In this document: one piece after another, positions 43,228 through 64,000 of the stretch
Numbering within the stretch: position 1 is the stretch's first letter
Layout of the letters: the number at the start of each line of letters is the position of its first letter
NCBI GenBank assembly: GCA_030374765.1
Contig: JARGXX010000070.1
Span: forward strand, 55,081 to 119,080
Length of the DNA: 64,000 bases
Origin: Agarophyton chilense
Lineage: Eukaryota > Rhodophyta > Florideophyceae > Gracilariales > Gracilariaceae
Direction of reading: 5' to 3'
Notes under the pieces: model-generated
Told to the model about the DNA's origin: nothing
Database searches by the model: none
What the model saw: the letters and a program-made list of their open reading frames with translations, nothing else
Position numbers and translations under genes: made by a program

Positions 43228-43229
43228 TG

Positions 43230-43252
43230 CGTCAGTGTTCTCGGAATGCTAG
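43230..43252 (+). repeat. Tn2 left terminal inverted repeat
   Basis: Begins CGTCAGTGTTCTCGG; pairs with 61870-61892 with one mismatch (A for T at position 5). The core TGTTCTCGGAA is shared with Tn1. Confidence 0.85.
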
Positions 43253-43744
43253 TTCAGTGGTCAAAAAAGGACGAATTGAAATGACCGAAAAACCCGTGAA
43301 TTTATCCAAATTTGGAGGTGTTAATTTCCGAAAATATTTTCATTCGTTCATTAGTGCTAGTTTGTATGGGAAGGAAAACTAGCAAATATCTGCAGTTTTT
43401 CTAGTTTTGATGGAGGTAAAACTAGCGTGAATCTTTCTGTCGCCGCAGTTTAAAGGTAAAAGTAGAGAAGTGGTGCAGGAGCAGATTCAATCTTTGTGCG
43501 CTCTAGATTGACAGATTAGTACAAACAACCGGTCCCAAAATGGACCTCAAAATAGAAATTGAACATTTAGTACCATCCATATCAATCGCAATAGAATCGC
43601 AGCCCGACCTGGCAGACCTCACGTGCCTTGCATTCTATATTATTCTCCACCGCCCTCCCCTGTCACGTGCCCTGTGTGCGCCATACTCTCTCTCCGTCTA
43701 CGCCCCCTACCAACTTCTTTTCCACCACCTCTCCTCCACCCACC
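43253..43744 (+). promoter_or_regulatory. Tn2 subterminal region and transposase promoter
   Basis: Repeated CTAG motifs in both directions (TGCTAGTTTG, AACTAGCAAA, TTCTAGTTTTG, AACTAGCGTG) within 200 bases of the end, mirrored at the right end (AACTAGCGCA, AACTAGCTATCTAGC). These fit transposase-binding sites. The stretch then leads through C/T-rich DNA to the transposase ATG in CCACCATGC. Confidence 0.6.
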
Positions 43745-46700
43745 ATGCCTTCCTGCTGCTTCAACGGTTGCTCCTTTTTCGCCCGAGAAATCCCCGCCCT
43801 CCAGCGGCACCAGAGAAGGTGCCCTCATCGCCTCTCCGCCAACAAGCGCTTCCTCTCCCCTGGCGGAAATGAACCCAACTTCCCCCCCCGCACAAAACGC
43901 CACAAGTCCACCTCACAACTCCCCCCTCATCCTCCTCCCTCACATCGCCCTTCCGACAACGTCCCTCTCGCACACCATGACTCCTATCTCCAAGACCAGC
44001 TCTCTCTCTCCCTCCACACCCAGGACGCCATCCACGTCGCCACTGCCCCTCTCGGTTCCCCCTCCTCTCTCGCTCTCTCCCCCCTCCCTCCTTCCACTCC
44101 CCCCGTCGACAACCCCCACCTGGAGAAAATGGTCCTCTACATCTCCTCCATCGCCTCCAAGCTTGGACAACGAAAGGCTGACGAACTCATCACTCTCCTT
44201 AATGATCCCCACTTCTCCGAATCAACATTCCAGAACTCAGTCTCCTCCGCAAAGCAATGCCTCGAGCTCCAGGCAGACCTCTTCCACCAGAGAATCAGGT
44301 CCATTGGTTTCGCCCCCTCCACCATCTTCGATCCCCACAAACGCTTCTCCGCAACCCTCTTCCAGAAAGACGCAATCCATGTCCTCAAACAACAGCTCGC
44401 CCTCGCACACTTCAAGAACACCTTTTTCCACCCCATCTCCCAAACATCCGCCTCCGGCTCCCCCGCCTTCGCACACCCCATGGCAGCCACCCTCGGCTCA
44501 AAAGTCGTCCCCGCACTCAAGACCGCCATCATGCAGTCCACAAAAGATAACATCGTCTGGCATCTCCCTCACTCCACCGGTATCGACTCCTTCATCGGCC
44601 TCGTCCAAATCTACTCCGATAAGTCCTCTACCTTTCTCAAATCTTCTTCCATCACCTCCTACCCCCTCCACATCACCCTTCTCAACTTCTCCGACTCCTT
44701 TCGCCGCAAATGCATCTCCGACAATCTCACACTCCTCGGCTATCTTCCCACCTCCTTCACCCCAAGCACTCCTTCTCCAGATGCAGATATCATCACTCAT
44801 TCCTCCTCCATCCCCCGCCAAACAAAAATGGAACTCATACAGCAGACCATCTCCTCCCTCCTTCAGCCTCTCTTCTCTTCCGCCCTCCCCGGTTTCCCCT
44901 TCCGCGACGCAGACGGCGTTCTTCGTCAATGCCACCCCATCATCGCCAGCTACTGCGCAGACATTCCCGAGGCAAAGGATATTCTCGCCATCTCCCACGG
45001 CACCCGCCCCCGGCACCCCTGCCACAGATGCTCTGTCCCTCGCTCACAACTTCACCAACACTCTCACGCCCATTCCGCTCGATCTCTTCCCCTCACCCTT
45101 GCAGCCCGCAACAAACACTTCTCCCTCCTCAAGGAATCCGAAGCAGCTCTCCTCGCCCGCAAGCCAAGAGTCACGCGCAACTTCAAGGAACAAGCTCTCC
45201 AAGCACTCCACTCCCTCTCCCTCGCAAAATACCCCTCCCTCTTCGAGTCTTACCCCTTTTTCAACATTACCCCCCTCCTCACCCCATACAACATCTTCCC
45301 CTTCGAACCCCTCCACAACTTCCACCTCGGCGTTTCCAAACTCATCAAGCTCGCCGCCATCGAACGTCTCAGATCAGAACACCTCTTCACCACCATCAGC
45401 TCCACAAACTCCCGCCGTTCCTTCCACTCCGTCCGCACCTCCATCCTCAAGCACTCCAACTTCATCCTCACCGCCATCGAAAATCATTCCCCAGCTACCG
45501 GCCTCCACATCGACTTCTCTACTTCCGAAAGCGGGCAGTCCCTCAACGGCTTCTTCACAACTGACGGCGTCCGCGGCATGCTAGAAGCAAAAGACTACCG
45601 CGCCCTCGACATGGTCTTCCCCTTCATCGGCGCCTTCTTCGACCGCTGCTGTGACGAAGCCAATTCCGCTCCCATCACAACTGTCTTCTCCAAGTACACA
45701 GACCTCCTCCTCACCTCCATGTGCTACAACTCCGTCCCCGAATGGACCACTTCTCGTCTTGCCAAACTCGCCTCCCAAATCCATTCCTTCAAGCACAGAG
45801 CTGTCGATGTTCTCGGTCCATACCATACCTCCAACCTTGGCACCCTCAAATTCCACCTCCTCGATCACATCGTAGACGACATTAGACGCTTTGGGGGTCT
45901 CCACTTCAACGATGCAGGCATCTTCGAACAAGCCCATACCCTCTTCAAAGCACATTACTCCCGAACCTCCAAGCGCAGACCCACCGCGCACAACGAAACC
46001 ATCCGTGCCATCGAACGCTCCGATGCCGTCAACAATTGGATTTATCTCTCCGCTGATCCTTCCGTCACCTCATCCTTCCATGCCCCTCCTCCTCCCTTCC
46101 AAGCCCGCAAACCAGGTTTCGTCCGTGATGGCAAGCACACCTCCTTTTCCGATCTCATCACCGCTCACAAATTCCTTCGAGAAAACCCCCACTCAACAAT
46201 CTCTTCCCTTCAGGACCTCTTCTTCCCAGACACTATCGCCATCATCTCACAGATTGGAACCCTCGCACTCCCCTCCTTCGTCACACTCACACTCGAAACA
46301 CTAGCTCTCAACCAGGACTCCCCAACTCTCCGCCAAACCCGTCTCACATTCGTCAATTCCGCATACGTCGTCGGCGGCTTCACCCCAACCCTAGACGACT
46401 ACATCGCCGATCGAAACGAGCTCGCCGTCAAAGATCCCCCTCTCCCACTCATTCAACGTATCTTCGCTGCTCCCTCCTTCGGTCCCTCTAAAACCCCAAA
46501 GTTCTCCCACATCCTCGTTGCCGGTTCCAGCTTCTCCAACCCCACTCCCACCGCCTGGGTCTGCAAGCTCAACTCTCTTCTTCGCTTCACCACCCCTTCT
46601 TCCCCTTCCACTCAAAACGAGTTCGCCTTCGTTCAGTTCCTCGAACTCGTTCCACCCCAGGATCAAGTCGATGTCTCTCTCAATTGCATCTGCCTCCGAT

Positions 46701-47041
46701 GGGCAACAGACGACGAACAAAACCACACCGCCCACCCCCTTCCTATCTCAAACACTTCCAACTCCGACAACGTCTCCCCCTGGTTCGGCCTCGTACCATC
46801 CTCTTCCATTCTCGGCCCCGTTCATGTACTTCGCCAAAACTACCCCGCACCCCCCTTCACCCCTCGATTGCACTGGCGCTTCCATCGATTTTACCTCAAC
46901 AGATTCTACCGAGACCCAACTGCCAAGCCCTACTTCTCCAACACCACCACTGGTGGCACAACACCACCACTGGTGGCACAACACCACCACTGGGTGGCAC
47001 CCATAATAATACCTCCCAAGGCACATGATCCAATAAAATAG
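43745..47041 (+). CDS. Plavaka-like (CACTA-related) transposase
   Basis: 1,098 residues from the ATG at 43745, chosen because a zinc finger (Cys 5, Cys 9, His 22, Cys 26) starts there. An in-frame ORF extends 39 codons further upstream. Diagnostic Plavaka blocks: LVQIYSDKSS (about residue 290), RRKCISDNLTLLGYLP, GVLRQCHPIIASYCADIPEAKD (about 390-412), HPCHRCSVPRSQL (about 425), and FEPLHNFHLGVSKL (about 520-533). In known Plavaka proteins the corresponding blocks are YSDKT.LS, DG..R.C.P..A.YIADYPEQ, C.RC..P and LH...LGV. The enzyme would cut and join the element ends in the nucleus. The frame is intact. The coding strand is extremely C-rich, unlike the gypsy genes around it. Confidence 0.85.
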   Translation: MPSCCFNGCSFFAREIPALQRHQRRCPHRLSANKRFLSPGGNEPNFPPRTKRHKSTSQLPPHPPPSHRPSDNVPLAHHDSYLQDQLSLSLHTQDAIHVATAPLGSPSSLALSPLPPSTPPVDNPHLEKMVLYISSIASKLGQRKADELITLLNDPHFSESTFQNSVSSAKQCLELQADLFHQRIRSIGFAPSTIFDPHKRFSATLFQKDAIHVLKQQLALAHFKNTFFHPISQTSASGSPAFAHPMAATLGSKVVPALKTAIMQSTKDNIVWHLPHSTGIDSFIGLVQIYSDKSSTFLKSSSITSYPLHITLLNFSDSFRRKCISDNLTLLGYLPTSFTPSTPSPDADIITHSSSIPRQTKMELIQQTISSLLQPLFSSALPGFPFRDADGVLRQCHPIIASYCADIPEAKDILAISHGTRPRHPCHRCSVPRSQLHQHSHAHSARSLPLTLAARNKHFSLLKESEAALLARKPRVTRNFKEQALQALHSLSLAKYPSLFESYPFFNITPLLTPYNIFPFEPLHNFHLGVSKLIKLAAIERLRSEHLFTTISSTNSRRSFHSVRTSILKHSNFILTAIENHSPATGLHIDFSTSESGQSLNGFFTTDGVRGMLEAKDYRALDMVFPFIGAFFDRCCDEANSAPITTVFSKYTDLLLTSMCYNSVPEWTTSRLAKLASQIHSFKHRAVDVLGPYHTSNLGTLKFHLLDHIVDDIRRFGGLHFNDAGIFEQAHTLFKAHYSRTSKRRPTAHNETIRAIERSDAVNNWIYLSADPSVTSSFHAPPPPFQARKPGFVRDGKHTSFSDLITAHKFLRENPHSTISSLQDLFFPDTIAIISQIGTLALPSFVTLTLETLALNQDSPTLRQTRLTFVNSAYVVGGFTPTLDDYIADRNELAVKDPPLPLIQRIFAAPSFGPSKTPKFSHILVAGSSFSNPTPTAWVCKLNSLLRFTTPSSPSTQNEFAFVQFLELVPPQDQVDVSLNCICLRWATDDEQNHTAHPLPISNTSNSDNVSPWFGLVPSSSILGPVHVLRQNYPAPPFTPRLHWRFHRFYLNRFYRDPTAKPYFSNTTTGGTTPPLVAQHHHWVAPIIIPPKAHDPIK
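46942..46998 (+). repeat. Triplicated 20-bp palindromic unit at the transposase 3' end
   Basis: The unit ACCACCACTGGTGGCACAAC occurs almost three times and contains the palindrome CCACCACTGGTGG. It adds a Thr/Pro/His-rich segment near the C-terminus without breaking the frame. Confidence 0.75.
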
Positions 47042-47115
47042 TCACCGCTGCTTTTCTTCCATAGCCGACCCCCATCTTGCTCCACCTCCTTACCCCCTTA
47101 TCCCCCCGTACCTTA

Positions 47116-49752
47116 TCACTCTCCCACTCCTTGCCTACTCCCCAACGCTAAGCGCTTGAACCGTGGTTCTTCTGGTCCACATGACGCTATATAGCAATCT
47201 AACACCGCTCCAAGTCTTCTCGTGAGATTCTCCATGAAAAACTCCTCCCTTATCGCCAGATAGATTTTCTCTCTCGACGGTATCCATAGCCCAACCGTCG
47301 CGATTCTCTCCTTATTCCCACTCACATCTCTACGATTCCCTCCACAGAATCCATCATTCTCAAACTCCTCAGCATACTCATCCTTCACCATGTTCCAGGC
47401 AACCCTCAATATGTCCTCAACAGCCAGTGGCAGAAACCTCCCAAACAGCGTCGAGAACAAAAGTTGCCTTTGGCCTCCCCGCCCAACGTCTCTATCCATC
47501 GTGGTCACCACACATCCAATCCATGCATCACCGTCCCATCCACATACTGCCTTTCTCCATTTCTGTGACTCTCTACCGCGTAGCCCATAAACTCCTCCAA
47601 CACTTTCAACGACACCTGATTTCGAAAATACATATCTGCCTCACCAAAGTCCTCCAAGTTCTCAGACACCTTCGATCCAGAATAAGTAATATCTTCAATC
47701 GCACTCGTCCTCCACGCACACAGCTTACCTCTCCCATCCTCCCCCGACCCCATCAACTTCTCCTGCGCCTCCTCAATCTGCTTCTTCAACTCCGCCCAAA
47801 GCTCCGTCCCTTCAGTCACCTTAGCTCGTTTCGCGATCAAATCATATCCAAGCATGGAAAACAGCTTATCACGCGCTGCTCGCTTCCGCACCCCAACCAC
47901 ATCGCTCAATGCTTGCTTCATCCTCTGTCTCAAGCACCGATCCGCACTTACATTTTCCACGCACTCCTCTCTCCTCCCCGCTTCCCTTATCGACTCCCAT
48001 TTCGCTCCCATTAACTCAGTCTCTACCACGTGCTTCAACAACAAATGGCTCCAGCCCTCTGTCGACGGCGTATACGGTCTCATCTCATATGCAACCTCAA
48101 TTGGACATCTCGGAACCATTTCCTTCTCTCCCACCACAAACATACTTTCCTCCCTACTCTCCCCAACCGCCTCACTTCTATTCTTCCAGCTTCGACCCAC
48201 ATTCTCGGTGTCGAAGCAAAGTTCCGATGCCTCCAGTTTTGCACAATGAAGAATCCTATCATACACACGACGTGCAAATCCATAAAAGCATTCCTGCACT
48301 CCAATGTCATACTTTCGTCGCCGCGTCACGCCTCCCTCCCCCCTCCCTTCCCCAGCGATTCTACTTTTCAACAACTCCCTCAAACTCTCAATCAGCACAT
48401 TCTGCTGCTTCATTTCCTCCCTCGCCCGATCCAGCTCCGTTTGCGTCATTTTCCAACTCACCATCACACTGTAGCTGTCTTCCTTCATACGTCCCATTTG
48501 TCCCTTCAACACATTCATCTTCTCAATTAGCATCGACCGCGGCAACAAACCTATGTCATCATCATTTGCTTCATCTTCCACTATACGGACGGCGTTCTCC
48601 ACGACATTAAAATTCGCATTCTCCCCGTTATCATTATTCCTTGTGAATACAATGTTTCTTCTTACTCGCATACCTTCCGGCGTCCTTTGCCTTGCTTTCA
48701 CCTCAAACCCTTAAACTCCCAAACCCACCCCTCTCCTCGGTGGCAAACGCTCGACATCTTCTCCCTGATGAGAAAGAACTGCTGCTCTTCCATCGCCTTC
48801 CTCCCCTGAACCACGTGTTCTCCCTCCAGCAAACCCCCTTCTCCCCCCCTCACTCACATGCACTTCTCTGCTTTCCCTTTCGTCTATCGCTCTTCTTCTT
48901 GTAACTCGAACACTTCCCATTCTTTCCCTTGCACGCTCTCTCCTTTCTTCTACGTGATCCAAGTTCACCCCCTCCCATCTTTCCGCCTGTTCCCCCGCGG
49001 TAACTCCAACACTCTCTCCTTCTGTTCTCTCTCGAACGACTCTTGCGCCCGCGATTAGACCACTACTGGGTCCACCTATTCTACCCTCCCCACCACGGCT
49101 ACTCTCTATTCTCCCTTTCTGTATCTCATCATCACCGTCCTCTTCCCTCATACCCGTAAACGATGCCCCTGCTTCTTCAACGCCTCTGAGGCGGGATCCA
49201 CGTTCTCCGATCATTCTCTCTCCCTCCTTACGCCCCTTCGTCCTCTCATTCGGAATCTCTTCACCTCCTTCAGGTGCAGAGCATGGATTTACCGGCTCCA
49301 CATCAGCTGAAGACGTGAGTACAGCACTTAGAGTCCGCTCGGATGCATCCCCTCTCCTTGTCCTCCCTGGAGCTCTGCTCGCCCTCCCCCGCAATCCACT
49401 TCTAGGTACACGCGTGCGGTTGCTTCGCACGCCATCCCGTTTTCCATCGCCGCTCCGCACCATCTCTCCCGTAGGCGACGTGATTTGCTCCGTACGCGAC
49501 GTGATTTGCTCCGCACTCTCCTCCGTCACCGTCTCCTTTGCGCGAACTGCCTTTCCTTTGCCCCCACTCGCCTCTCCTTCCCCACCATCTTGCCTTGATC
49601 TACCTCTCAGGCGCACGCCTCCCTTCTCTCCACTCGCGCCCTGGAGCCTACGCCCCTTGTCCCTTCCGCCCTCCGCATCCCCTCCATGCCGCCGTGATTT
49701 TGTACCGCGCCCGCTAGTGTTCTCGCTTCTCGATTTGCGCTTCGGAGCCATG
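47116..49752 (-). pseudogene. Basic, coiled-coil accessory protein of Tn2, one stop and one frameshift
   Basis: From ATG 49752 (MAPKRKSRSENTSGRG) a minus frame rich in Arg, Gly, Glu and Ser (possible nuclear localisation and nucleic-acid binding) runs to TAA at 48711-48713. It continues in the same frame with a coiled coil (LIEKMNVLKGQMGRMKED, LDRAREEMKQQNVLIESLRELL) and an alpha-helical domain (AKWESIREAGRREECVENVSADR) to 47505. A third part in another frame (LLFSTLFGRFLPLAVEDILRVAWNM) ends at 47116. Total about 870 residues if joined. CACTA elements often encode a second, DNA-binding protein beside the transposase; that role is a guess. No known domain recognised. Confidence 0.5.
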
Positions 49753-50075
49753 GTTGAAGAGAGAGAGAGCGATCGTGGTATGGTCTTCCACGCGTTGCAA
49801 TGCGATGGATGGGAGAGAAGCTTCGAAACATTCTGCTTCCAAAAATATACCTCCACCCTTTTCGTGTTCTCAGAAAACCCCCAAACTTTTCAGATATTTT
49901 AAATTTGCGCTCGAACGCACCAGATATTGGGAAAGTATTCACCTTCGGTGTACATGACTTTCCTTTAGCATATGTACTACGTCACGCTTTGACGTTATAT
50001 GTAGCGACAAACATAGTAAAAGCCCACAATATCTGGTACACTACAATGAAGTAAAGTAACAAAAGCGATGCACTT
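49753..50075. other. Intergenic between two minus-strand Tn2 genes
   Basis: Holds the presumed promoter of the basic protein gene (right next to 49752) and the 3' end of the methyltransferase gene. No distinct signal recognised beyond AT-rich sequence around 49980-50060. Confidence 0.4.
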
Positions 50076-53000
50076 TTAATCGATTACTATGACTGGCGTG
50101 TTATTCATACTCCAGATATACTCTGTCCCATAATCCGCGAACAGCTCCTCTCCTATTTTTATATCTCGAATTGCTTGCACAGAAAGCAATCTATAGTCTC
50201 TCAACTGAAATGGGGTCCGCCCCGTCCCCGGAGTTCTGATGACCCGAACATTTGCAGTTCGTCGTCTCATTAACCCGTCTTCAACCGCATCCCTGTCCCT
50301 ATCCCCTTCCACATACTTGGGGTCGTTAATTGTTCCCCCCAAGCAAAATGGAGCAGGGACAATCCACACCGGAATAAGAGACACCCCACTAATTCTTCCT
50401 GGTAGCTTGTGAAACACTTCCCCTCGGACGCTTATCTCCATCGCGTACTGCCGAAAACGATCAGCAGTCGCTTTCAATAGCCCCCCTCCGTATGCCTTAT
50501 GAACTTCCTTCCGTTTTGAAAGATCATGGTACACCAAAGTCCTGTAAAAGTAACAAACAGTCTCACCTTGTATCACCCGGCGTGTTGTGTACACACCAAC
50601 TCCAGCATTCGGGTGCCTTATCGTCGACTTTGCAATCCGACAACCACATACTGTCGCCTCCACTGCCAGAATAGCATTCCAATCCAACAGTGACATCTTT
50701 CCTTGAAAACTTCTTGGCCACTCATACAGCGCCTGCCGTCGCCCAATCTCCGATATATTCTTATCCTGCCACATGGAGGAGAGAAAATCCACGATATGGG
50801 GTGGAAACATCTGATGCTCGGGAAATCCGGTAGGTGTTTTCCAGGACTTCGAACGCTTTATGACGACGTCCGGAAACAAGCATGTCACTCGAGTCACAGC
50901 GTTCCGAACATCTTGCGTTATATGAATGTCCGTCTCGTTGTTCCGCATGCATGACGCAAATTTCACTGTAGCGGCGTGCTTCGCATGAGCAAAGCACTGC
51001 GGATCTGGCTCACACCCTAGAAACTGACGGTGCTTTTCCAGTTCCATGCATGCCATGGCCGTTGAAAATGTTCCGGCGAAGAGGTCCACCACTATGTCTC
51101 CCGGCTGAGAAAACCTGCTGATGAGCTCCTTCAGCAAAGCGCGTGACTTCTGTTCCGCCCGCACTTTCTGATACGTAACTGCTCCTTTGGCATTCTTCCT
51201 TCTCCATAGAAGTGTTTCACCATTCGACATGGGAGGCACTTGGTCAATCACGCTATGGTAACCCGGATATCGCGATGGTACATAGCTGAAGTTCTCATAG
51301 TTCACCATGCCATGTTGTTCGGCGTAGGACAACCCGCTGCGAACTCCATGAATGGCGTACTCTGTTCCGGGAAACAGGGAGCACGAACTACGTCCGGGAT
51401 TACGCATCGGATTGCCTTGAGAGCGAATGAAGTGCAGCTGGACCTTGTCCACGACAAACGACCTGCTCTTCTGTCCATTCTCATCCTTTGCACCAATTCG
51501 ACCCAACACTTCTTTCCATTCGTTCACCTGCTCAATCGCGCAGAATATAACGAAATGCCCTCCCGGACGCAGAAGTTTAGAGATGAGCTTCGCCGTCTTC
51601 ACCATGTCTTGCCGGTTAAGAACGTCGTACCAGCTGTTTTTCCTGTTCTTCTTCGCACGTATATTATACGGCGGGTCCGTGAGAACCAACTGCACTTTCC
51701 CTATCGGAGAGACCCCATTGCTGCGCAATGTCTCGTCAATCTCCACCAGGTTCTCGAAAGTACAATTGTACATTCGACAGTGCTTATCCATCTCCGACTC
51801 GCACTTTTGGAGAGACATTATATCATCCAGAGAGGTAAGGTCGTGAGGCGGCAGAATATCCACCGACTCAGATTCGACCGACCTTGGTCCAGCTGTGGAA
51901 GAATGCTGACCAACACCCATGTTCTCTTCCTCATTCCCGGTCCCACCCTCCACTCCCTCTCCACCCTCCACCGCCGGAGCCTCCGAATCTTTCTCAGGGG
52001 GTACAACTTCTATCTCGTCTTCTTCCATAACCATAGTAGGTTCCGCCTTTGTCGCAGCCACCACTTCCACCTCCACACTCCCTCGCAGCTTTAGTGGCGA
52101 TATGTATTCCGAGATGGTAGAGATAAGAGAGTTCGAGAAGCAGTCGAATCTCTCCGCAAACACTCTAGGCAAAGTGTATGTAAACGGTTTTAGAACGTCC
52201 CATCTTTCCGGAGCTGATATAGAGTAAAGCTGCTCATTCACCACCACTTTGTGCAGGTCAGCGAGAAACTCTTTGGCCAACATACGAAGTGGAGTGTCAA
52301 CGTACTCCGGCAGGTTCCACGCCCATGGGACGACATCCTCCTCCAATAAAGTACGGTTTCTACCAGGAAGGAGTCGTTGGGCCATGTCCTTGTGAGAGAA
52401 CCCATCCCTTCTGTTTCCGATTGCCTGGAACTGCATATCAGAATATCGTAGATGGATAAAGGGCAAAACCATGAATTCCACGCCAGGGAATCCCAAATAC
52501 TGGGCGAAGCTGTCCCACGCGTTATTGACGAGCTGCACACCAAAGCCCACACGCTGAGCTACTGGTTTGTCATAAATCGCCACCTTCGAAAATGGCGTAT
52601 CGTAGGTTCTGTCCCGCTTTCTTCGCTTACGGGAGACTCTTCTCTTCTCCATAGAGACCGACTGAATACAAATGAGGAACAGCAACCTCTGGAACATTGT
52701 CGGGAAGTCGGTCGCGAATGGAGCCCGGCTTTTGCTCGCCTTCTTTCGGGTTGTATCCAGACCTTTGAAGAACTCTGTCAAAGTGACATTCTTCGGGATG
52801 CCCTTGAACTCCACCGCCTCGTACGCGTTCCAAAAGTCCCTCACGCGCCTATCTGGGTCCCCATCCCTTATATCCAGCAACCTCGCCGAGAAATAATTCT
52901 GACAGTTCGAGCCCCTCATTCCTACAACTCGGAGCTCATCTTCTGTGTAATTGGTGTGGTCGGGACCTAGGAGAGTATAAAAAAACTTCGCGGTCTCCGG

Positions 53001-53207
53001 TAGGATGTGGCGATTGGCAATTGCGAAATCGATGAATGCAGTGTGCCCCACTTTTCGCGGCTCATCTTCCTCCCGCCTCGTTAATGCGTAACGATCACGC
53101 AAATCCAGACACGCCCTGATAACTTCATCCCCCGTACCAAACAGTTTACCCATTTCGAAGGTGTCTGCCGCAGGCGATGAAGAAGTTCTCGTGGGTTCTG
53201 GAGCCAT
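50076..53207 (-). CDS. DNA amino-methyltransferase fused to a SET domain
   Basis: 1,043 residues, ATG at 53207, no interruption. Residues 1-375: helical domain of unknown function with a very basic patch (VSRKRRKRDR, about 191-200). 376-450: acidic linker. 500-750: N6-adenine/N4-cytosine methyltransferase, catalytic DPPY at 511-514 and S-adenosylmethionine-binding DLFAGTFST at 708-716. DPPY before FxGxT is the beta-class order of CcrM-like bacterial enzymes. 858-1030: SET-like domain with GVGVYTTRRVIQGE, GGTINDP (in place of the usual NHS), TANVRVI and IGEELFADYGTEY, suggesting lysine methylation or a degenerate relative. The combination would link DNA methylation to histone methylation in one polypeptide. 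It diverges from the ParB-like gene across the palindrome array, so the two are probably co-regulated. The SET assignment is less certain than the methyltransferase. Confidence 0.8.
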   Translation of the reverse strand: MAPEPTRTSSSPAADTFEMGKLFGTGDEVIRACLDLRDRYALTRREEDEPRKVGHTAFIDFAIANRHILPETAKFFYTLLGPDHTNYTEDELRVVGMRGSNCQNYFSARLLDIRDGDPDRRVRDFWNAYEAVEFKGIPKNVTLTEFFKGLDTTRKKASKSRAPFATDFPTMFQRLLFLICIQSVSMEKRRVSRKRRKRDRTYDTPFSKVAIYDKPVAQRVGFGVQLVNNAWDSFAQYLGFPGVEFMVLPFIHLRYSDMQFQAIGNRRDGFSHKDMAQRLLPGRNRTLLEEDVVPWAWNLPEYVDTPLRMLAKEFLADLHKVVVNEQLYSISAPERWDVLKPFTYTLPRVFAERFDCFSNSLISTISEYISPLKLRGSVEVEVVAATKAEPTMVMEEDEIEVVPPEKDSEAPAVEGGEGVEGGTGNEEENMGVGQHSSTAGPRSVESESVDILPPHDLTSLDDIMSLQKCESEMDKHCRMYNCTFENLVEIDETLRSNGVSPIGKVQLVLTDPPYNIRAKKNRKNSWYDVLNRQDMVKTAKLISKLLRPGGHFVIFCAIEQVNEWKEVLGRIGAKDENGQKSRSFVVDKVQLHFIRSQGNPMRNPGRSSCSLFPGTEYAIHGVRSGLSYAEQHGMVNYENFSYVPSRYPGYHSVIDQVPPMSNGETLLWRRKNAKGAVTYQKVRAEQKSRALLKELISRFSQPGDIVVDLFAGTFSTAMACMELEKHRQFLGCEPDPQCFAHAKHAATVKFASCMRNNETDIHITQDVRNAVTRVTCLFPDVVIKRSKSWKTPTGFPEHQMFPPHIVDFLSSMWQDKNISEIGRRQALYEWPRSFQGKMSLLDWNAILAVEATVCGCRIAKSTIRHPNAGVGVYTTRRVIQGETVCYFYRTLVYHDLSKRKEVHKAYGGGLLKATADRFRQYAMEISVRGEVFHKLPGRISGVSLIPVWIVPAPFCLGGTINDPKYVEGDRDRDAVEDGLMRRRTANVRVIRTPGTGRTPFQLRDYRLLSVQAIRDIKIGEELFADYGTEYIWSMNNTPVIVID

Positions 53208-54396
53208 TTATGTACATGTTCAAACAACCTCACGGGCGGTCGTCACGAGAGCCTGAGTGAAAGAGAGCAGCGGGTGCGGGTGGGTGCGGGTGGGTACGGA
53301 AAGATTGTGAGTACGGTTGAGGAGCGCGCACGGAAGAACGGTTGTTGCGGAACGACTTCGCAGCTATCCTGGTTGCATTCTGTCGGCCGTCAGAGGTGCG
53401 CTCCGACTTCATCGGGGGTCCCGATGAAGTCCCCACGCACCTCTGTCGGCCGACATAATACATATAATTTTGTAATTTTTAGGACGCCCAGGTGTACACG
53501 GTGCATTCTGTCGGCCGACAGAGGTGCGCTCCGACTTCATCGGGGTCCCGATGAAGTCCCCGCGCACCTCTGTCGGCCGACATAATACATATAATTTTGT
53601 AATTTTAGGACGCCCAGGTGTACACGGTGCATTCTGTCGGCCGACAGTCGACCAACATCTCAGAAACGCATCATGCGTGATGTTATGGCGTATTTGTCGG
53701 CCGACAGGGGTGCCCTGCGACTTCATCGGTCCACCGATGAAGTCGAAGCACACCCCTGTCGGCCGACAATTCACCAACATGTTGTAGGGACACCATTCGG
53801 GCCATTTGTGGGCCGCCAGGGGTGTGCTGCGACTTCAGTCGCAGGGCACCCCTGTCGGCCGACAAATACCCCATAACCTCACGCATGATGCGTTTCTGAG
53901 ATGTCGGCCGACAGAGTGCACCGTGTACACCTGAGCGTTCCAAAAATTACAAAATTATATGTATTATGTCGGCCGACAGAGTGCACCGTGTACACCTGAG
54001 CGTTCCAAAAATTACAAAATTATATGTATTATGTCGGCCGACAGAGGTGCGCGGGGACTTCATCGGGACCCCCGATGAAGTCGGAGCGCACCTCTGTCGG
54101 CCGTCAGGATATTTTTAATTTTTTAATTTTATTTTCTTGTATCGCCTACCAAGCCAATAGGCGTGTTTGTGATGGAAAGAGACAAGGAGTTTCTTGAGTT
54201 TGAAACTAAGCGGACGTAGCTCAGGTTGAAACTAAGCGGACGTAGTTCAGGCTGATTGCAACGAACTGCTCTCGGGAGTGTTCCGGATAGTCGCCACCAA
54301 AGGAGCTCGATCTAATACGTCTTAGTCTGTATACCATAAAAGGCTCAAAGCGCTCTGCGACCATTTGCAACCTCGACCGACTACGATCCGATTCAA
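53208..54396. promoter_or_regulatory. Divergent intergenic region with palindrome array
   Basis: Separates the two large Tn2 genes. It contains the 726-bp array (53381-54106) with 173 bases to the left start codon and 290 to the right one. A doubled segment TTGAAACTAAGCGGACGTAG lies at 54200-54243. Both promoters must sit here. Confidence 0.6.
53381..54106. repeat. Nested palindrome array, 13 TGTCGGCCGACA-type sites
   Basis: Sites start at 53381, 53444, 53509, 53571, 53635, 53695, 53757, 53807, 53853, 53902, 53967, 54032 and 54095. Ten are the perfect 12-bp palindrome; the two outermost read TGTCGGCCGTCA and the central one TGTGGGCCGCCA. Spacing is mostly 60-65 bases. Several intervals are themselves hairpins (ACTTCATCGGG ... 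CCGATGAAGT). The left half is repeated in inverted order in the right half (for example GTGTACACGGTGCA against TGCACCGTGTACAC, and AATACATATAATTTTGTAATTTT against its complement), centred near 53810. This resembles an iteron/centromere or origin-type site. The 12-mer is a plausible binding site for the adjacent ParB-like protein. Confidence 0.85.
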
Positions 54397-57138
54397 ATGA
54401 TGACTCGAGGCAAAGCGAAAGCGAGGGGTACTCCGCGGGGTACTCCACGCGCCACTCCGCGAAAAGCTACATCGGGAAACAATCTGGCTGGTGGGGATAG
54501 GGTGGCGTTGTTCCTGGCGGATGGGACAGGGAAGAAGAAGGGTACTATGGTTGGCACTGCGGAGTTGAGAGGTGTTGGGGGCAGTGGAGCGGCCGGGAAG
54601 GCGCTTTGCAGAGCGATGCATGGCCATTCGTTGCGCGAGTCTGCGAAGCCGGGAGAGGACTTGGTGGCCATCTGGAGGACTGAAATTAAGGAGGGGATCA
54701 ACTCCAAGTATCCGTACTCCTTCAAGGGAGCAGAGGAGCCGCCGGAGTTGCTGAAGGATATGGTGTCGGCAGGTATATACGCATGGGATACCTCGATGAT
54801 GACACGCGTCTCCTCTGTGCTGACTCCAGGGCCTCCTCGGCCGGAGACTCCCAAAAGCGCGACCCCCTCGAAGGAGTCTGCTACGCCTTTGAGGGGGAAG
54901 AGGGCACAGCCAACAACAGTGCCGCCGGCCATGAAGCAACCCGTCAAGCCGAAAAAGAGGGTGACGATAGTGGATGATTCTGATGAAGATGTTGTGGAGG
55001 TGGGGTCAGCGGTGAATGTACGCGGGGATTCGCACACCGGTCCCGAGTTGGAGTTGTTCGATGACGGCGATGCCGTTCCTTCGCAGGAAGTGGATAGGAC
55101 TCTCGTGGAAAAGAAGATCTCTGCTTCAGACTATGACCAGTGCCGCTTGATTGTGGACATAGATGACATACAAATCCCCGAGAAGACTGTCAGAAGTGTG
55201 AATGCGGAACACAAGGCGGCGACGATGGCAAAGTGCAAAACGTTTGGCTGGCTTGCGTCGGCAGGGTCGATTGCTGTTGCCATCGTCGGGGGAATGGAAT
55301 TAGATTTCAGTGAAATTGTTCACAATGGGAGGGTAGTGGTGCCTGTCATACTCATTGACGGTCATCACCGCGTCTTGGTTCTGCGAGATCTGAAGAATGA
55401 TCCCTCTGAAGGGAGAAAGTGGTTGGAAATTGTGCGGTCTCTTGATGTCGTTCTTTGGAGACGAAAGGACCGGAAGCCTTTATCGCTGAACGAAGTGCTC
55501 GGTCTTGGTAATGTACTCAATGAAATGAGTTCAAATGTGTTGAAGATGAGTTTCGCCGACAAGGTTCATTCGACAGTGTCCTTCATTTGCAACTTGATTG
55601 ACGATAAGAGAACCAAGTTGGCTGACCTTACTCCGACACGGATAGCTGGGGCGCTGAAGACGAGCGAAGCTATAGGAATCTACAGCTTGCGCCACTTGAA
55701 TCGCTATGCGACTCTTGGGTTGAAATTCGTCAGGAGCGAAGGTCTCCTGGAGTTCTTTGAGAACGTATGCAAGGAGGGTCCAGTGCTAACGCTTGCGCAT
55801 GTGTCGAGTGACTTGTTGTTAGGACTCGAAGACGAAATATTCCGTTTCGCAATCCGTTGTTTGCAGCTACATGTGAGGGTGAGGATGGGTTCTACGGGGA
55901 ATATGGGACGTTTCCAGGAGACGCGAAAGCAGTTCTTCCAATGCGCCATAGGAATGTTCCAACTATGCGAAAGGGCGGGAAAGGAGAAGGGTCTGACGGC
56001 GGGGAAGGTTCTAGACAGCACAATTGTGATGGGAAAGAACGAGGTGTCTTTAAGGGAGTACCTTTGCATGCAAACGGCGAAGATGGAGCTCAGTGGTCCG
56101 AAGCGGTTGTGGCCGGGGTTGGTGTCGAAGAGGATGAAAATCGCACAAAGGCGGATTGAAGGCGGTCTGAAAGTGAGTCTGGCGTCCCCAAGTGCGGAGA
56201 AGGATGTGGTGGAGGTGCCACCTTCTGTGAATGTTCCTTCGTCTAGTGCTGGGGAGTCTGTACCCCACCAGGAAACCGTGGTTCCCAGACGCATCACACG
56301 AACTAGAAAAGGTACTGAGCGCGGGCTGGATGCTGCGGGTGAGAGGGTGATGGAACCTAGACAGAGAAAGGGAAAGAGAAAGGCTGTGGTCATTAGTGAT
56401 GATGAACGCGAGTATGAACAGCCTTTAAAGCGGAAGAGGAAGAGGAGAAAGACGGTGGGCACATCTGCGGCTCAAATACCGGCTGACGTGGTGGATGTGT
56501 TCAAGAAGATGAGCAGGAAAGAGCTGAAGCGCTTCTTGAAGGAACATGTACTCAATGTTTTCTCATCGAGTGAGGATGAACTGGATGATGACGGGGGGCA
56601 GGGTGCATTTGTAGGGGACGAAGAGGAGGAAGGTGTGCAAATGCGTGGCTTCGAAGACAATAATCCGGAGGGTGTTCCGAAGGGGCTGAAGAGGGCGGGA
56701 CCGTATGCGGGGGGGTCGGGTATGTCGTGGGTGTACTTGGTGAATGCACTTCCGAGCGAGTGGCCGGCGGGTGAAAATGGAGTGAAGCATCAGCACCTCT
56801 GGATGCAGATGATTTACCTACGGAACAAGCACAGGGCGGAGTGCTTGAGGGTAGAAGACTTGAAAAGTGTGCACCATGCGGTTTATTGGCGTGCTGCTCA
56901 TAACAGGCACAAGGAACTGGGTTCCACGAAAGAACCGGTTCTTGGGGTGATTCTACCGACGAAGGACCACCCTGTGAATGAAGAGCAGGCGATATGGATG
57001 GCAGCAATGGAGAGGGATGACTTGGCCCGCGAGTACTTCGCGACTAAGAGAAGTGAGCTGATGGAGAAAGGATTTTGTGTGCTGGAAGAGTTTGCCACGG
57101 ACGAGGGGATGGCGGATGAGGCGAAGAAGAGGGGGTAA
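54397..57138 (+). CDS. ParB-like domain protein, N-terminal part of a ParB-oxygenase fusion
   Basis: 913 residues from ATG 54397. 1-30 basic TPR repeats (GTPRGTPRATPR). 150-250 low-complexity. About 250-360: ParB/Srx-like fold (CRLIVDIDDIQIPEKTV, then VVPVILIDGHHRVLVLRDL; His-His-Arg at 323-325). In ParB the GxHR box binds CTP and acts on DNA. About 361-440: helical segment (MSFADKVHSTVSFICNL, TPTRIAGALKTSEAIGIYSLRH) that may be the helix-turn-helix half of ParB. 640-720: basic KRKRKRRKT and acidic patches typical of nuclear proteins. 730-850: second conserved-looking region (WVYLVNALPSEWPAGE, LRVEDLKSVHHAVYW). The frame ends at TAA 57138 right after a G5 run. One extra G would fuse it to the next frame, and the junction GFCVLEEFATDEG reads like the start of an oxygenase domain. 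Confidence 0.7.
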   Translation: MMTRGKAKARGTPRGTPRATPRKATSGNNLAGGDRVALFLADGTGKKKGTMVGTAELRGVGGSGAAGKALCRAMHGHSLRESAKPGEDLVAIWRTEIKEGINSKYPYSFKGAEEPPELLKDMVSAGIYAWDTSMMTRVSSVLTPGPPRPETPKSATPSKESATPLRGKRAQPTTVPPAMKQPVKPKKRVTIVDDSDEDVVEVGSAVNVRGDSHTGPELELFDDGDAVPSQEVDRTLVEKKISASDYDQCRLIVDIDDIQIPEKTVRSVNAEHKAATMAKCKTFGWLASAGSIAVAIVGGMELDFSEIVHNGRVVVPVILIDGHHRVLVLRDLKNDPSEGRKWLEIVRSLDVVLWRRKDRKPLSLNEVLGLGNVLNEMSSNVLKMSFADKVHSTVSFICNLIDDKRTKLADLTPTRIAGALKTSEAIGIYSLRHLNRYATLGLKFVRSEGLLEFFENVCKEGPVLTLAHVSSDLLLGLEDEIFRFAIRCLQLHVRVRMGSTGNMGRFQETRKQFFQCAIGMFQLCERAGKEKGLTAGKVLDSTIVMGKNEVSLREYLCMQTAKMELSGPKRLWPGLVSKRMKIAQRRIEGGLKVSLASPSAEKDVVEVPPSVNVPSSSAGESVPHQETVVPRRITRTRKGTERGLDAAGERVMEPRQRKGKRKAVVISDDEREYEQPLKRKRKRRKTVGTSAAQIPADVVDVFKKMSRKELKRFLKEHVLNVFSSSEDELDDDGGQGAFVGDEEEEGVQMRGFEDNNPEGVPKGLKRAGPYAGGSGMSWVYLVNALPSEWPAGENGVKHQHLWMQMIYLRNKHRAECLRVEDLKSVHHAVYWRAAHNRHKELGSTKEPVLGVILPTKDHPVNEEQAIWMAAMERDDLAREYFATKRSELMEKGFCVLEEFATDEGMADEAKKRG

Positions 57139-57140
57139 AC

Positions 57141-58082
57141 TTCGATGGGGATGTGACTGGGACTTTGCTAGAGTTCTTCCAGACGGATTTCTTGAACCAG
57201 CCGGACTTGACGATTGAAGGGAATAGAAAGAAATGGGACCCTATAATCAACGCTGGTGAGGAGAGAGACGCTGGAGATAGAATGAAGGGAGTTGGGCGGT
57301 ACATTACGACGAAGGTGGGGATTGTGGATTCTGTGGAGGGGGACGAGAACAACGTTTTAATGGTGAGGAAAAGGGCATTGTTGGATGCGAGGTTTGGACA
57401 GATTGCGGCCGCTCTTCGGTTGTGCAACAACAGGTCGGGGAAGAAGAGGATGTATGCCCCTGAAACAGGGGGGCGAGTGCTGTGTACGGCGGAGGGCTGT
57501 CCAAGGCAGGTGTTACATACGAACTTTCGAGGACTGACCGATGCCGAGAAGAACGTCGGAGAGGTTCCAGGGTTCTTCATGATGGCGTCGGGAGCGAGTT
57601 CGTTTATGCTTTGGGTTTGTGAGAGATCACATAACATGTACGTGCCCGACGACAGGAGCTTGAAGCGGCTGTCTCGGACGATGGTAGTGAGGAAGTTCAG
57701 GATTCCGCCGTACTCCATTTTTATTGGAAGAGGAGATGTGTTTCATGCTGGAGCTGGATACGAGGATGCATTGGTTAAGGAAGTTTGCATGAGGTATCAC
57801 ATGTACTTGGTACCGGATGGGTACAAGCTACCGGACGCAGTGCATAGGCAACCAGCATTTCGGCCTAAGTTCGAAGAGGATGATTCCAACAAGGGTGATG
57901 ATGAAGACGTCCAGGTAGATGAGGATGAGGAGTTGGATGAAGATTATAAAATGGAAGTTGTTGAAAGTGGGGAAGAGGAGTATGAAGAAGAGGATGATGA
58001 ACCTGGGATGGGTCTCAACTCGGCTAACACAGATGGAGACTATGAAGACGGCGGTATGATAATGGATGACGACGACGACTAG
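57141..58082 (+). CDS. 2-oxoglutarate/Fe(II) oxygenase-like domain, C-terminal part of the fusion
   Basis: Open frame of about 310 residues, +1 relative to the ParB-like frame; it has no convincing ATG of its own before 57282. Motifs of a double-stranded beta-helix oxygenase: RQVLHTNFRG (HxN in place of HxD, His at 57515), then IPPYSIFIGRGDVFHAGAGYE (second His at 57744) and Arg 16 residues on (MRYHMYL, 57792). The C-terminus is strongly acidic (EEEYEEEDDE, DDDDD). Such enzymes hydroxylate or demethylate bases, proteins or small molecules. TET/JBP proteins travel with KDZ transposons in fungi and algae, but this sequence is not clearly TET/JBP. The HxN variant leaves activity uncertain. Confidence 0.65.
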   Translation, partial: FDGDVTGTLLEFFQTDFLNQPDLTIEGNRKKWDPIINAGEERDAGDRMKGVGRYITTKVGIVDSVEGDENNVLMVRKRALLDARFGQIAAALRLCNNRSGKKRMYAPETGGRVLCTAEGCPRQVLHTNFRGLTDAEKNVGEVPGFFMMASGASSFMLWVCERSHNMYVPDDRSLKRLSRTMVVRKFRIPPYSIFIGRGDVFHAGAGYEDALVKEVCMRYHMYLVPDGYKLPDAVHRQPAFRPKFEEDDSNKGDDEDVQVDEDEELDEDYKMEVVESGEEEYEEEDDEPGMGLNSANTDGDYEDGGMIMDDDDD

Positions 58083-58163
58083 ATAGTATCTGTTACCTAT
58101 TGAACAATAAAGAGTACAATTTGAGGTAATATGTGGAGTAGTCCCCTTTTCTTGTAATAGTGA

Positions 58164-59632
58164 TCAGTCGTCTTTCAGTAGAAACTCCTGAACAACTGGA
58201 TTGAAACGCGTGAGAGTAGCACTTGCTTTCACTTTCTCATAGTGAATGACAACTGTCGAAGATATCAAGATTACGACATCCACTGTGTTACCAAGCAGTA
58301 TAGGAACACCAGGTCCCTCAATGCGAGAGGTGGAGAAGGCGGTTGAAGAGAGTGCAGCGAAAGTGCATGCCGACAGCCTCATACCGAGTAGTCGGAAGGT
58401 TACATCCGGACTGGATATGAATAAAGCCTGTTGAAAAGAGTGGGAGAGGGCGCCAAGCACGAGGTTCATAAAAGAGGTTCTCCGTGGTTCCGGGGTCATT
58501 GTGAACTTTGTGTTAAGATAGGACTCTGGAAAGAAGGATATAGAAACAAGCTGGAGAAGATATGCCAAAGCGCCAACTGCGGCCCCTCCTGTGGAGAAGG
58601 CGATACAATTTGTCTTCACGTCTGATGAAAGGGTACCGCTGACTGGAATGAAGCGGTGAACGAGGAAAAGTATGGCGTTGAGGGGGATGAGTAGAGTAAG
58701 GAGTAGAGCCCCGAATTCCAGAAAGGCTCGTTTCTTCCAGGTATATCGCTGGTTTGGATTGAACGGCGTAGTTTGTAGAGACCCGTATAACGCGTTTATA
58801 CATTGTACGCCTCCTTCGATTATGAGAATGTGTAGCAGGCTTTGGATAGAACACCTCAATAGCGTTATGAGAATGAACCGAAGGAGAGAGTTGAATCTGA
58901 ATGGAAGCGTATATTGCAGAGCTGGGTCTATAACTCCGAAGAGTGTAGTTAGTGTGATTGTGAACGTTAAGGTCGATGTGAAGAGTGTTTGCTAACTGAA
59001 CATCTTAGTAAAAGCGTTCCGGTTTGCTAGTCTTCCTTGTACGCTGCACATAGGTAACGATATGATACCGCTCTTTGAACAGTTGTTTCAGAGTATCTTG
59101 CTGCTGTAGGAGAGTTGCGAGTGGGGAGCCTCCTGGTGGTCGTACAAATGTCACGAATCTCGTCCATGAGCTCGTTGGTGATATGATTCTGGAACCCTCT
59201 GACTTCGACCACATTCTGGGTGGTTGGAAGTTTTATTTGAAGGACTTCGTCGATCGTGATAACCGTTCGTTGTGGAAGAATATCCACAGCTGCTGAGCAT
59301 TGGACAGAAGAACCAGGGGGTAGGGAAAGACGTGCTTCGTAGCGCTGCATGCTTGAGAAGGAGAGGAGAGTGTTGTGTAGAAAGGTATTTGTGAGGGACT
59401 GGATACAGTATGTTGAGCGCAATGAAGTAGGGTGGTCATCGGTGGATATATATATGTAGTGATCAAAGTAGTTGTTAGGTTGTTGCCGTATCTCTGTCGC
59501 GGAGTATGAATAATTGTTATGAATGAAAACCTTTGATAGGCTGTAGGAGCGGTTATTGGGTACAGACTTAATTGCAAAGTTGGAAGATTTATGAAGAGTG
59601 GTTGTAGTGATGATTTGTGATGTACGAAGCAA
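58164..59632 (-). CDS. Possible two-exon membrane protein of Tn2
   Basis: Exon 1 (59632-about 59040, starting MLRTSQIIT at the track's first in-frame start) encodes a Ser/Thr-rich soluble segment with VDILPQRTVITIDEVLQIKL. A short candidate intron (GTACAAGG ... GTTCAG, near 59040-58992) leads into a second open frame with at least four hydrophobic segments (FLEFGALLLTLLIPLNAILFLV, GGAAVGALAYLLQLVSISFF, DVVILISSTVVIHY) ending at 58164. No known family recognised; the start and the splice are inferred. It is convergent with the oxygenase frame (81 bases apart). Confidence 0.4.
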
Positions 59633-59765
59633 TTCTTAATATCGTTTCATATATTCTGACGTGGTGTCGTGCGGATAGCAGTCTTTATCGAGGCAGCGAA
59701 GGAGATGGACATATGCTTTAGAAAGGAGGACTTGTTTTTATTGGAAGGGGTATATGAATGAAGTA

Positions 59766-61869: not shown

Positions 61870-61892
61870 CTAGCATTCCGAGAACACAGACG
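61870..61892 (-). repeat. Tn2 right terminal inverted repeat
   Basis: On the minus strand starts CGTCTGTGTTCTCGG. Followed by the TG target duplicate at 61893-61894. Confidence 0.85.
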
Positions 61893-64000
61893 TGAGCTCC
61901 TCAATGAGCAACACGCCGATACGTTTTATGGGTCGATACGCTCTCGTCTTAACGAGGGGGAGGAGCTCCCCTTTTCACTCGATTCACGAGGAATACTGTT
62001 AAGACATGTCGAAAAGCATGATCAAATCGTGATTCCACACACGTCTTGAAGAGTCGACTACTCCATCTGGCTACACTACAGCAGGCTGTCTTGTCATCCA
62101 GTAGAAACGAAGTTGTTCATGACTCTAAGAAGAGATATTTACTGGCCTACTTTGGCAATGGACTGCCATGCTACAGTGAGGTTGTGTAAAACATGTGCGA
62201 AGAATCGCGTGAGAGCTCTGCAGGAAGCGGAAACCGATGACGTTATTCCAGGCAAAAGCGCCCTTTACAATACGTCAGTATCGACATCCTAGGGGAATTG
62301 ATTCGCTCAAGGCGAGGTTATCGCTACCTATTGGTAATCACCGACCGCTTCTCGAAGCTAGTGCGGACTGTGCCTCTGAAGTGGATAACCGCAGCCGTAA
62401 TCGCACAGGCGTTTATCAAACACTGGGTATTTATATACGGACCACCAGAAGTTCCTGTTATCAGATAATGGGAAGCAATTCGTTGCGAAGTTCTTTCAGA
62501 ATTTTTGCCGCATTATGGGCATTTCAAACGTGTTTACCCCGACCTATCATCCGCAATGCAACGGTCAGGTGGAGCGTTTTAACCGCACGCTGATAGCAGC
62601 ATTACGACACTACATCGCGGACCACCCGAAAGAATGAGATATGTTTACAGATACTCTGTGCTACGCGTACAATACGCAAGTTCATACCTCTACAAAGACG
62701 GCAACCGTTCGACCTCGTTCTCTCACGTAAACCTCTGGCTTTACCGGTTGCGCTCGACGACGAGACAGAATTGGACGCGCCGACCCCGGTTAAACCACCA
62801 TCTGAAATGGAGGAATGACCTGAAGGCCAGAGCGGAAGAAGCCGCTAAGGAGTTATCAAAGACGCAAGCTCGCTATAATCGAAACTATGACGCCAGAAGG
62901 CGAAGAGGAAATCCGGCAATCCGAGTAGGAGGTCACGTCTTCGCGCGAGTCGAAAGACCGGACAAACAGGAAGAATCTCGTCATGAGTTGTTGCCGATAG
63001 CGGCCGGACCCTTCAAAGTGGTGGACCTTGATGAAGACACAGTGGTCATCAAGACAGGTGAGGACTTTGAACATGTATCGCGTGATCGCGTTGAAGTCGC
63101 GCCTGACCCGCAAGTGGAAGTCCAGGTATCTGGTAGAACTAAGGAAGCAAGTGCGACGGAACGTCAAGGCAAAAGCCCAAGTGACTCTGGGGAGAGTGAA
63201 CCGCCACCAATGGCTCGAGCGGAGGAGAAAGCTCCTGATCTCCCACCGCCGGCGGTTGCGTACGCTAATCACGGACAGCTTCCGAAGTATCGGGATATGC
63301 CCCGTGGCACGCACAACACCCCGTAAGTACAAAATTGGAACCTTAAAGCAGGAAAGATGTTTTTGAATGTGGCCCCAAGGGCTTGGAAACGAGTGCACGC
63401 GAAAACGCGCCGTTGCTGCTTCAGGCTGAACCGTCAGGTGAATCGCCACTCGCTGTTCCGCCGATATCCATCTCCTATCCTCTCGTGGGCAGGAAGAAGA
63501 AGAGCTATCGCCTCCTGTCGTGGTGCAAGCCACCATCATCCACCGAACAGCGGTCGGAATCGGATAAACCGAAGGAAGTTCATCCACGAATTGAATTGAG
63601 AAGTAGCAAGAAGTACGCTTCTATGAAACCTGAAAAAACAGGATAGCTCTTTATCTGAGAAAGGTTCTCAAGGAATGAGTACACTGCCCCTGCGGGTAGA
63701 ACGACAGGTAGTCGGGGAACGAACGCGTAGAGACGCTGAGACTGCTAACACAGAGACGCTTGGGTCAGCCCTAAGGCATTTCAAACCTGCTAACAGGAGT
63801 CTCGCGCCAACAGCGAAAGCATTGGGAAACGCCCAGGAATATGTTATGGATCGCATATGTGAACATGGCGAGCATGAAGATACTAGAGAATTACTGTATC
63901 GAGTCCGTTGGTACGGTTTTCCTCCGGAAGCGGATTCGTGGGAAACTATAGCTCATATCTCCCGTTCGCCACTCGTGCGATATCATCGACGCATGCGATT
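61893..64000 (+). pseudogene. Element C pol 3' part: integrase and chromodomain
   Basis: Directly after Tn2: ELLNEQHADTFYGSIRSRLNEGEELPF (linker before integrase), HHCC remnant (CKTCAKNRV), then integrase blocks scattered over shifted frames (VITDRFSKLVRTVPL, LLSDNGKQFVAKFFQ, TPTYHPQCNGQVERFNRTL), an SH3-like segment in 62634-63326 (GGHVFARVERPDKQEESRHELLPIAAGPFKVV) and a chromodomain in the last 165 bases (YRVRWYGFPPEADSWETI, RYHRR). Several frameshifts and stops; dead copy. Runs off the window. Confidence 0.8.

Follow-up and report, generated by a model that had tools for sequence, protein, structure and literature searches.

An array of palindromic 12-mers is a module of an 18.66-kb family of Plavaka-type DNA transposons. 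It is located near the middle of the element, between two divergent accessory genes and at the position where strand asymmetry switches. In the window, i.e. the whole stretch of 64,000 nucleotides that was analysed, the array-bearing element is 18,663 bp in length (43230–61892), and its GC skew is extreme and mirrored, with the sign flipping at the array.

The transposon and its palindromic array

The ends of the element were set by comparison of 30 left-end loci and 14 right ends. Homology starts at GTCAGTG in all 30 left-end loci, and the preceding C, taken as the first base of the element, is present in 29 of them. The inverted repeat of the element is CGTCWGTGTTCTCGGAATGCTAG. Identical 2 bp sequences are found at both ends in nine of ten end pairs (chance p = 1.4e-10); the sole exception, at C1:396.6k, has a left end that lacks the first base. 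The termini read CGTCA on the left and CGTCT on the right (minus strand), which are near to, but not identical with, the CATCA of PlavakaB. The features are as follows.

43228..43229, no strand: target-site duplication TG, left copy (end-pair comparison)
43230..43252, plus strand: left terminal inverted repeat CGTCAGTGTTCTCGGAATGCTAG (end comparison)
43628..47041, plus strand: Plavaka transposase open reading frame (PF18759, E 1.2e-21, 77.7 bits against a cut-off of 26.3)
47505..48701, minus strand: open reading frame that gave no Pfam match over the cut-off; its coding strand is G-rich
48711..49856, minus strand: open reading frame with no Pfam match
50076..53207, minus strand: N6/N4 DNA methyltransferase (DPPY) with SET domain (PF01555 3.4e-18, PF00856 4.1e-5)
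53381..54106, no strand: palindromic 12-mer array of 13 sites, 726 bp, inverted overall, with the GC-skew sign change
54397..57138, plus strand: first 913 residues of the ParB/Srx-fold-like protein, with a frame break at about residue 909
57153..58082, plus strand: out-of-frame continuation of the ParB-like gene
61870..61892, minus strand: right terminal inverted repeat CGTCTGTGTTCTCGGAATGCTAG, read on the minus strand (end comparison)
61893..61894, no strand: target-site duplication TG, right copy (end-pair comparison)

The gene order is thus transposase (+), two open reading frames without matches (−), methyltransferase-SET (−), array, ParB-like (+) and a right part, where three reading frames scanned with Pfam revealed no recognised genes. 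The transposase has a C(2)C motif, CHRC, at residue 465; C(2)C is found in four of five relatives and is absent from P0008. The histidines of its H(3)H motif, H743 and H747, are invariant in six aligned proteins. No relatives of protein P0001 were present among 7,994 scored candidates. The terminal stretches 43230–43550 and 61700–61892 contain several CTAG-centred motifs (GCTAGT/ACTAGC type, by eye), which are possible transposase sites. The left flank 43001–43229 (and locus L038) recurs at C86:1413.5k, 5.5 kb from the contig end; contigs C70 and C86 may overlap, which would slightly inflate copy counts. Outside the element, an open reading frame at 21258–22421 encodes a Uma2 domain (putative restriction endonuclease, PF05685) in this eukaryotic genome.

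The motif TGTCGGCCGACA is found at 13 sites between 53381 and 54106 when up to two mismatches are allowed: ten are perfect, two have one mismatch and one has two. In 100 shuffled sequences the mean was 2.36 matches and the maximum eight; none reached 13, and a chance origin is rejected. The start codons that flank the array, 53207 (methyltransferase-SET, minus strand) and 54397 (ParB-like, plus strand), are 174 and 291 bp away. Recount and shuffles thus confirm the preliminary description of 13 copies, ten of them perfect, between these divergent genes. Its spacing of about 60–65 bases holds for nine of the 12 intervals, the other three being 46–50; from start to start the spacings are 63, 65, 62, 64, 60, 62, 50, 46, 49, 65, 65 and 63. 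The region is inverted around its own centre, as had been proposed, with arms of 144 nt (53377–53520 and 53967–54110) that are 94% complementary. The hairpins described earlier are also present, as five GC-rich units that are 83–89% self-complementary and as a fold of the single DNA strand in which a long nested hairpin dominates (z = −52 against 20 shuffles). Four spacers between other sites are 63–64% AT. The preliminary description had noted neither the borders of the transposon nor the switch of its GC skew at the array.

The methyltransferase-SET protein also matches DpnA/CcrM chains and the phage DNA methyltransferase family phrog_67 (2.2e-26). Its motif order predicts a beta-class enzyme with 6mA as product.

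The ParB-like gene has a 1228-aa frame in some other copies. Intact copies (e.g. L007:1501-5184) have HTD, HAGAGY and RYHMYL motifs in the tail, while the window copy carries a frameshift and reads HTN in place of HTD. The series HTD...HAGAGY...R is, by motif, presumably reminiscent of 2-oxoglutarate/Fe(II) dioxygenases; profiles and structures gave this label no support, and the C-terminal model has a pLDDT of 34. The identity of the first domain, called ParB-like in the preliminary description, is favoured by the GxxR P motif, which is DGHHR in the ParB-like proteins P0010, P0002, P0003 and P0004, and by a low-confidence model that matches ParB, Noc, PadC, KorB and sulfiredoxin structures. 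On the other side, no curated ParB family in Pfam, NCBIfam or PHROGs was matched at the thresholds used, Foldseek alone gave no ParB among the 50 matches listed, and PDB profile searches with alignments of the ParB-like proteins gave nothing useful. Support from the modelled fold for the ParB-like label is weak, though specific. The only relatives among 7,991 scored candidates are two proteins of the red alga Gracilaria domingensis, P0003 and P0004, with 28–29% identity.

Among copies, pN/pS of the ParB-like gene is 0.72 for singletons and 0.86 for shared substitutions, and that of the transposase part is 0.86 and 0.50, respectively. Such weak coding constraint is as expected, since most copies are decaying. 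A second ParB-like family has ten similar copies with frames of 1233–1335 aa (C33:4375, C95:4917, C96:3882, C76:11660, C89:11903, C63:22924, C32:27910, C31:728378, C92:2421256 and C106:356475). Five of the ten lie no more than 12 kb from the beginning of their contig, possibly because of subtelomeric sites or assembly breaks.

The array across the genome

The genome scanned comprises 79.8 Mb in 135 contigs. The perfect 12-mer is found at 487 places, compared with five for the reversed control. On contigs C1 and C2, where sites are fully listed, all six arrays are within elements that have both ends; this confinement to the element rejects a host centromere or a genome-wide satellite. Three of the nine end-paired copies on these two contigs have no perfect site.

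With up to three mismatches, the end motifs are found 115 times (left) and 191 times (right). Pairing of the listed matches by script, using the nearest compatible end within 24 kb, gave 79 copies. A listed array motif is present in at least 53 of the 79, i.e. at least 41 of the 50 copies of 9 kb or more and at least 12 of the 29 shorter ones; the counts are lower bounds, based on 51 array-border matches, 78 of 248 centre matches and the array starts of C1–C3. Among the matches listed, 17 of the 29 short copies (<9 kb) are without the motif. At least 26 array places are outside paired copies. Twenty-five of the 26 are within 11.3 kb of a listed family end, and the remaining one (C105:1006.8k) adjoins methyltransferase-SET and ParB-like pieces.

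The preliminary description asked whether each 12-mer cluster in the genome lies beside a homologous gene. The listed arrays do belong to one transposon family. Arrays without the gene, the case that it named as refuting, do occur, but in copies of this element that have been shortened, L001 among them. Among the sites listed, a subset of all sites, no array lay at a locus unrelated to the family. Of 30 ParB-like loci fetched, 29 have at least one site (up to two mismatches) 5′ of the gene, often 302 bp before the ATG.

The array varies greatly in size, from 0 to 19 sites across these 30 loci, and its structure differs in all 27 copy pairs that are under 1.2% divergent. For example, there are 13 sites in L006 and 14 in L007, two copies that differ by 0.05% over 4,239 bp. 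The spacings of L030 are mirror-symmetric (63-65-63-60-62-50-62-60-63-65-63), and L012 shows this series minus its last interval; the right half of the window's array is shortened relative to this pattern. Site number is higher in copies whose matched ParB-like part is free of stop codons than in those where it contains stops (medians 12 vs 5.5, p = 0.036, n = 10 vs 20). Divergence from L007 is not significantly related to site number (rho −0.30, p = 0.11). Core positions are 0.79–0.98 conserved versus 0.34–0.73 in flanking columns, in 289 sites that were chosen by similarity, which makes the comparison partly circular.

In shortened copies the array is 0.3–1.3 kb from the right end (12 paired copies; also L001). 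An argument for retention of the array in cis, which would build on 12 of 29 short copies with several right-end distances, was dropped: by our rough estimate, multiple random deletions could leave a similar number. One copy (C77:798545-819177, ends L049 and L048) has two inverted left arms around a single array, 10.3 kb from each end, with a methyltransferase-SET gene in each arm. Its flanks show no matching 2-bp duplication, and it could have arisen by ordinary recombination between two elements.

Mirrored GC skew

At 4-fold sites the skew passes from −0.8 to −1.0 in the gene at the far left, through values close to 0 at the array, to +0.3 to +0.7 on the right. In plus-strand terms, the values left of the array are −0.94 for the transposase, −0.82 and −0.39 for the next two open reading frames and −0.39 for methyltransferase-SET; right of the array they are +0.47 for the ParB-like gene and +0.62 for the reading frame that follows. 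Six control reading frames, host or LTR, range from −0.09 to +0.15. The coding strand of the transposase is extremely C-rich, with C at 418 and G at 14 of its 4-fold sites. A skew caused by reading direction is rejected, as the transposase, which is oppositely oriented (it reads toward the array) and most skewed, keeps the sign of its side.

The whole sequence shows the same pattern. Left of the element the skew of the window is close to zero: over 72 bins the mean is 0.04 and the sd 0.12, and a single bin exceeds 0.4 in size. Within the element it is about −0.5 at 43.8–49 kb and weakens up to the array; beyond the array it turns positive, with the final two bins at +0.60 and +0.48, and the terminal 200–300 bp have hardly any skew. 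Cumulative skew reaches its minimum at 53156, which is 225 bp away from the array, and 30 of 31 bins have the outward sign. Outward skew increases with distance from the array (Spearman 0.85, 26 bins; p = 4e-25 for 1,200 sites). Inside single genes the rise is weak: it is present in the ParB-like gene (p = 0.03), reversed in the reading frame at 57153 (p = 0.03) and not significant in the other four. Steps between gene blocks and a smooth gradient therefore describe the data about equally well.

The skew extends to other copies. On the inner side of the left-end loci it is −0.55 to −0.57 in 29 of 30; the exception, L040 (−0.14), departs early. The outer flanks range from −0.17 to +0.20 in 28 loci. 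The other two, L050 (−0.52) and L055 (+0.45), abut a diverged Plavaka element, whose stop-broken transposase pieces are 39–51% identical (main pieces) and have coding-strand skews of −0.75 and −0.76. Five metagenomic Plavaka relatives, assessed from protein composition, show C-codon bias in at most one (P0005), and the skew is thus not a general Plavaka trait.

With single-copy substitutions taken as recent, left-arm singletons in 29 copies comprise C>T 142/740 and G>A 51/267 (0.192 and 0.191 per site, p = 1.0). Right-arm singletons in 28 copies comprise C>T 121/780 and G>A 217/1419 (0.155 and 0.153 per site, p = 0.90). L022 and L014, with 420 and 153 singletons, were dropped. Left-arm substitutions shared by two or more copies (C>T 31/740, G>A 5/267, p = 0.09) show no skew building. 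As single-copy substitutions are strand-symmetric, present chromosomal mutation is rejected as the source; together with the shared substitutions, this indicates that the skew is old and is not being made at current sites. It is found in a diverged family too, and it should erode in integrated copies. Past selection, or a phase in which the element was mobile or free, must be its source. We tentatively favour a copying phase, since the sign of the skew depends on the side of the array rather than on reading direction.

Possible roles and known systems

We tentatively favour the view that the array is both a protein-binding platform and the point where copying of the arms changes direction in a mobile phase, which is quite possible though short of probable. 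The array would offer many binding sites to an element-encoded protein, for which the predicted ParB/Srx-fold protein is the first candidate. Copying might proceed in two ways. In an origin-like variant, two syntheses would begin at the array and run outward; alternatively, in gap repair or end fill-in, two syntheses would begin at the ends and join at the array, a joining that the self-complementary units may aid. Such units would also account for the rapid change in site number and for the C77 copy with two left arms. In favour of this view are the excess of 12-mers over the reversed control, the location of all six C1–C2 arrays within elements, the sites 5′ of the ParB-like gene at 29 of 30 loci, the skew that takes its sign from the side of the array and the changes of array structure between closely similar copies. 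Against it are the strand symmetry of single-copy substitutions, shared substitutions that build no skew, the weak rise of skew inside single genes and the slight constraint on the ParB-like gene. A switch in the sign of strand asymmetry at the origin is expected of an autonomous replicon and is seen at the array. The origin proposed in the preliminary description thus has independent but indirect support from this sign change, while a copying phase and its direction are what we infer from it. Conventional outward replication predicts a flat skew, in contrast to the rising skew seen. Copies with no perfect site (three of nine on C1–C2) or, among the matches listed, with no array motif (17 of 29 under 9 kb) leave a need of the array for movement unsupported.

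A doubtful but possible alternative is that the array is an operator or bidirectional promoter, with regulator sites for the divergent methyltransferase-SET and ParB-like genes, the skew switch being a by-product of the layout. The position between two start codons 174 and 291 bp away, the many evenly spaced palindromes and the larger number of sites where the ParB-like part is stop-free (medians 12 vs 5.5, p = 0.036) all suit a regulatory region. This leaves unexplained that skew is strongest in the transposase, which is coded the opposite way yet has the sign of its side, and likewise that shortened copies such as L001 lack the ParB-like gene and yet retain an array close to their right end. 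An origin, a copying junction and an operator are all plausible roles, the last two being the likeliest pair.

It appears unlikely that the array is an internal replicon-like site, bound by a captured ParB-fold protein, where synthesis of the arms starts or joins while the element is free or replicating, and that the skew is a fossil record of this copying. Quite improbable is a true ParB-parS-like system or autonomous origin, with an extrachromosomal phase, outward replication and a ParB-like protein that holds or segregates the element. The ParB/Srx-type fold signal (low-confidence model), palindromes clustered beside the ParB-like gene, AT content of 63–64% in the spacers and a G-rich outward-synthesised strand in both arms would suit such a system; the rising rather than flat skew and the symmetric mutation of integrated copies argue against it. 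In addition, Pfam scans of nine element reading frames detected no ParA, and the ParA-binding motif (L/F/I)G(K/R)G(L/F/I) is absent from P0010, P0002, P0003 and P0004. ENxxR, which we take to be box III of ParB, was not found in the ParB-like proteins either. With no ParA in the nine frames and no motif for binding it, the partition site suggested earlier is unsupported. It is also highly doubtful that the array is a passive palindromic repeat, functionless and growing or shrinking by fold-back or failed gap repair next to a skew that is an old compositional trait: very fast size change (0–19 sites) and copies with both ends but no perfect site fit this, but a listed array motif in at least 41 of the 50 paired copies that measure 9 kb or above, core conservation of 0.79–0.98 versus 0.34–0.73 in the flanks (similarity-chosen sites, partly circular) and the mirror-symmetric spacings of some copies (L030) do not.

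The usual view of cut-and-paste transposons is that replication and repair by the host are all they depend on. Strong mirrored asymmetry that is confined to the element, with G nearly absent at synonymous sites of the plus strand in the far left gene, and that flips at a palindromic array beside the ParB-like gene, suggests that over evolutionary time the element was copied in a state that had a polarity of its own. If this is true, the accessory proteins now reported from algal transposons, ParB-like and methyltransferase, would gain a target site and with it a function.

In sopC of the F plasmid, some twelve palindromic sites at even spacing lie next to the ParB-type gene of SopB, and sopC operates with a ParA ATPase, in bacteria. 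The array resembles sopC in its dozen-odd spaced palindromes beside a ParB-type gene; it differs in that no ParA was found and that the copies examined are integrated in the genome of a eukaryote. Green and red algal elements are reportedly treated by Iyer 2011 and Petroll 2025, cited alongside Sola1-1_Ec32 of Ectocarpus.

Sola1-1_Ec32 has one 1104-aa protein with both domains, whereas here two divergent genes, methyltransferase-SET and ParB-like, have an array between them; the available part of its description mentions neither array nor skew (PMC12477816). In phages, the ParB-CTPase fold is often fused to the N6_N4 methyltransferase PF01555, and the fold is also present in eukaryotes, according to the excerpted text of PMC12704722. 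The element shares with these fusions a ParB fold together with PF01555 on mobile DNA, but here the two are separate eukaryotic proteins, with SET and a dioxygenase-like tail.

Plavaka elements, as outlined in the excerpts of PMC12730594, belong to the EnSpm-like (CMCT) clade, have 2- or 3-bp duplications and end in TGT..ACA (A) or CATCA..TGATG (B); SET genes are also found in other transposons, HarbingerS and MuDR of Phytophthora. The present element is similar in its transposase domain, its 2-bp duplications and the C(2)C and H(3)H motifs of its transposase, and its CGTCA terminus is close to CATCA but not the same; the elements in those excerpts are fungal, with TET/JBP genes, and ParB, an internal 12-mer array or skew is not mentioned there (PMC12730594). 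The giant repeats of Amoebidium likewise have a Plavaka transposase beside many intron-poor genes, over up to 50 kb, but many of these genes are tyrosine recombinases, and the excerpts give no ParB, array or skew (PMC11244446).

ParB-like and DNA-methyltransferase genes in algal transposons are, as far as these partial sources go, already published. The titles and abstract openings surveyed mention no GC-skew switch or palindromic array inside a eukaryotic DNA transposon; Petroll 2025 and Iyer 2011 may contain an earlier description. What is new here is an extreme mirrored GC skew that switches sign at the array.
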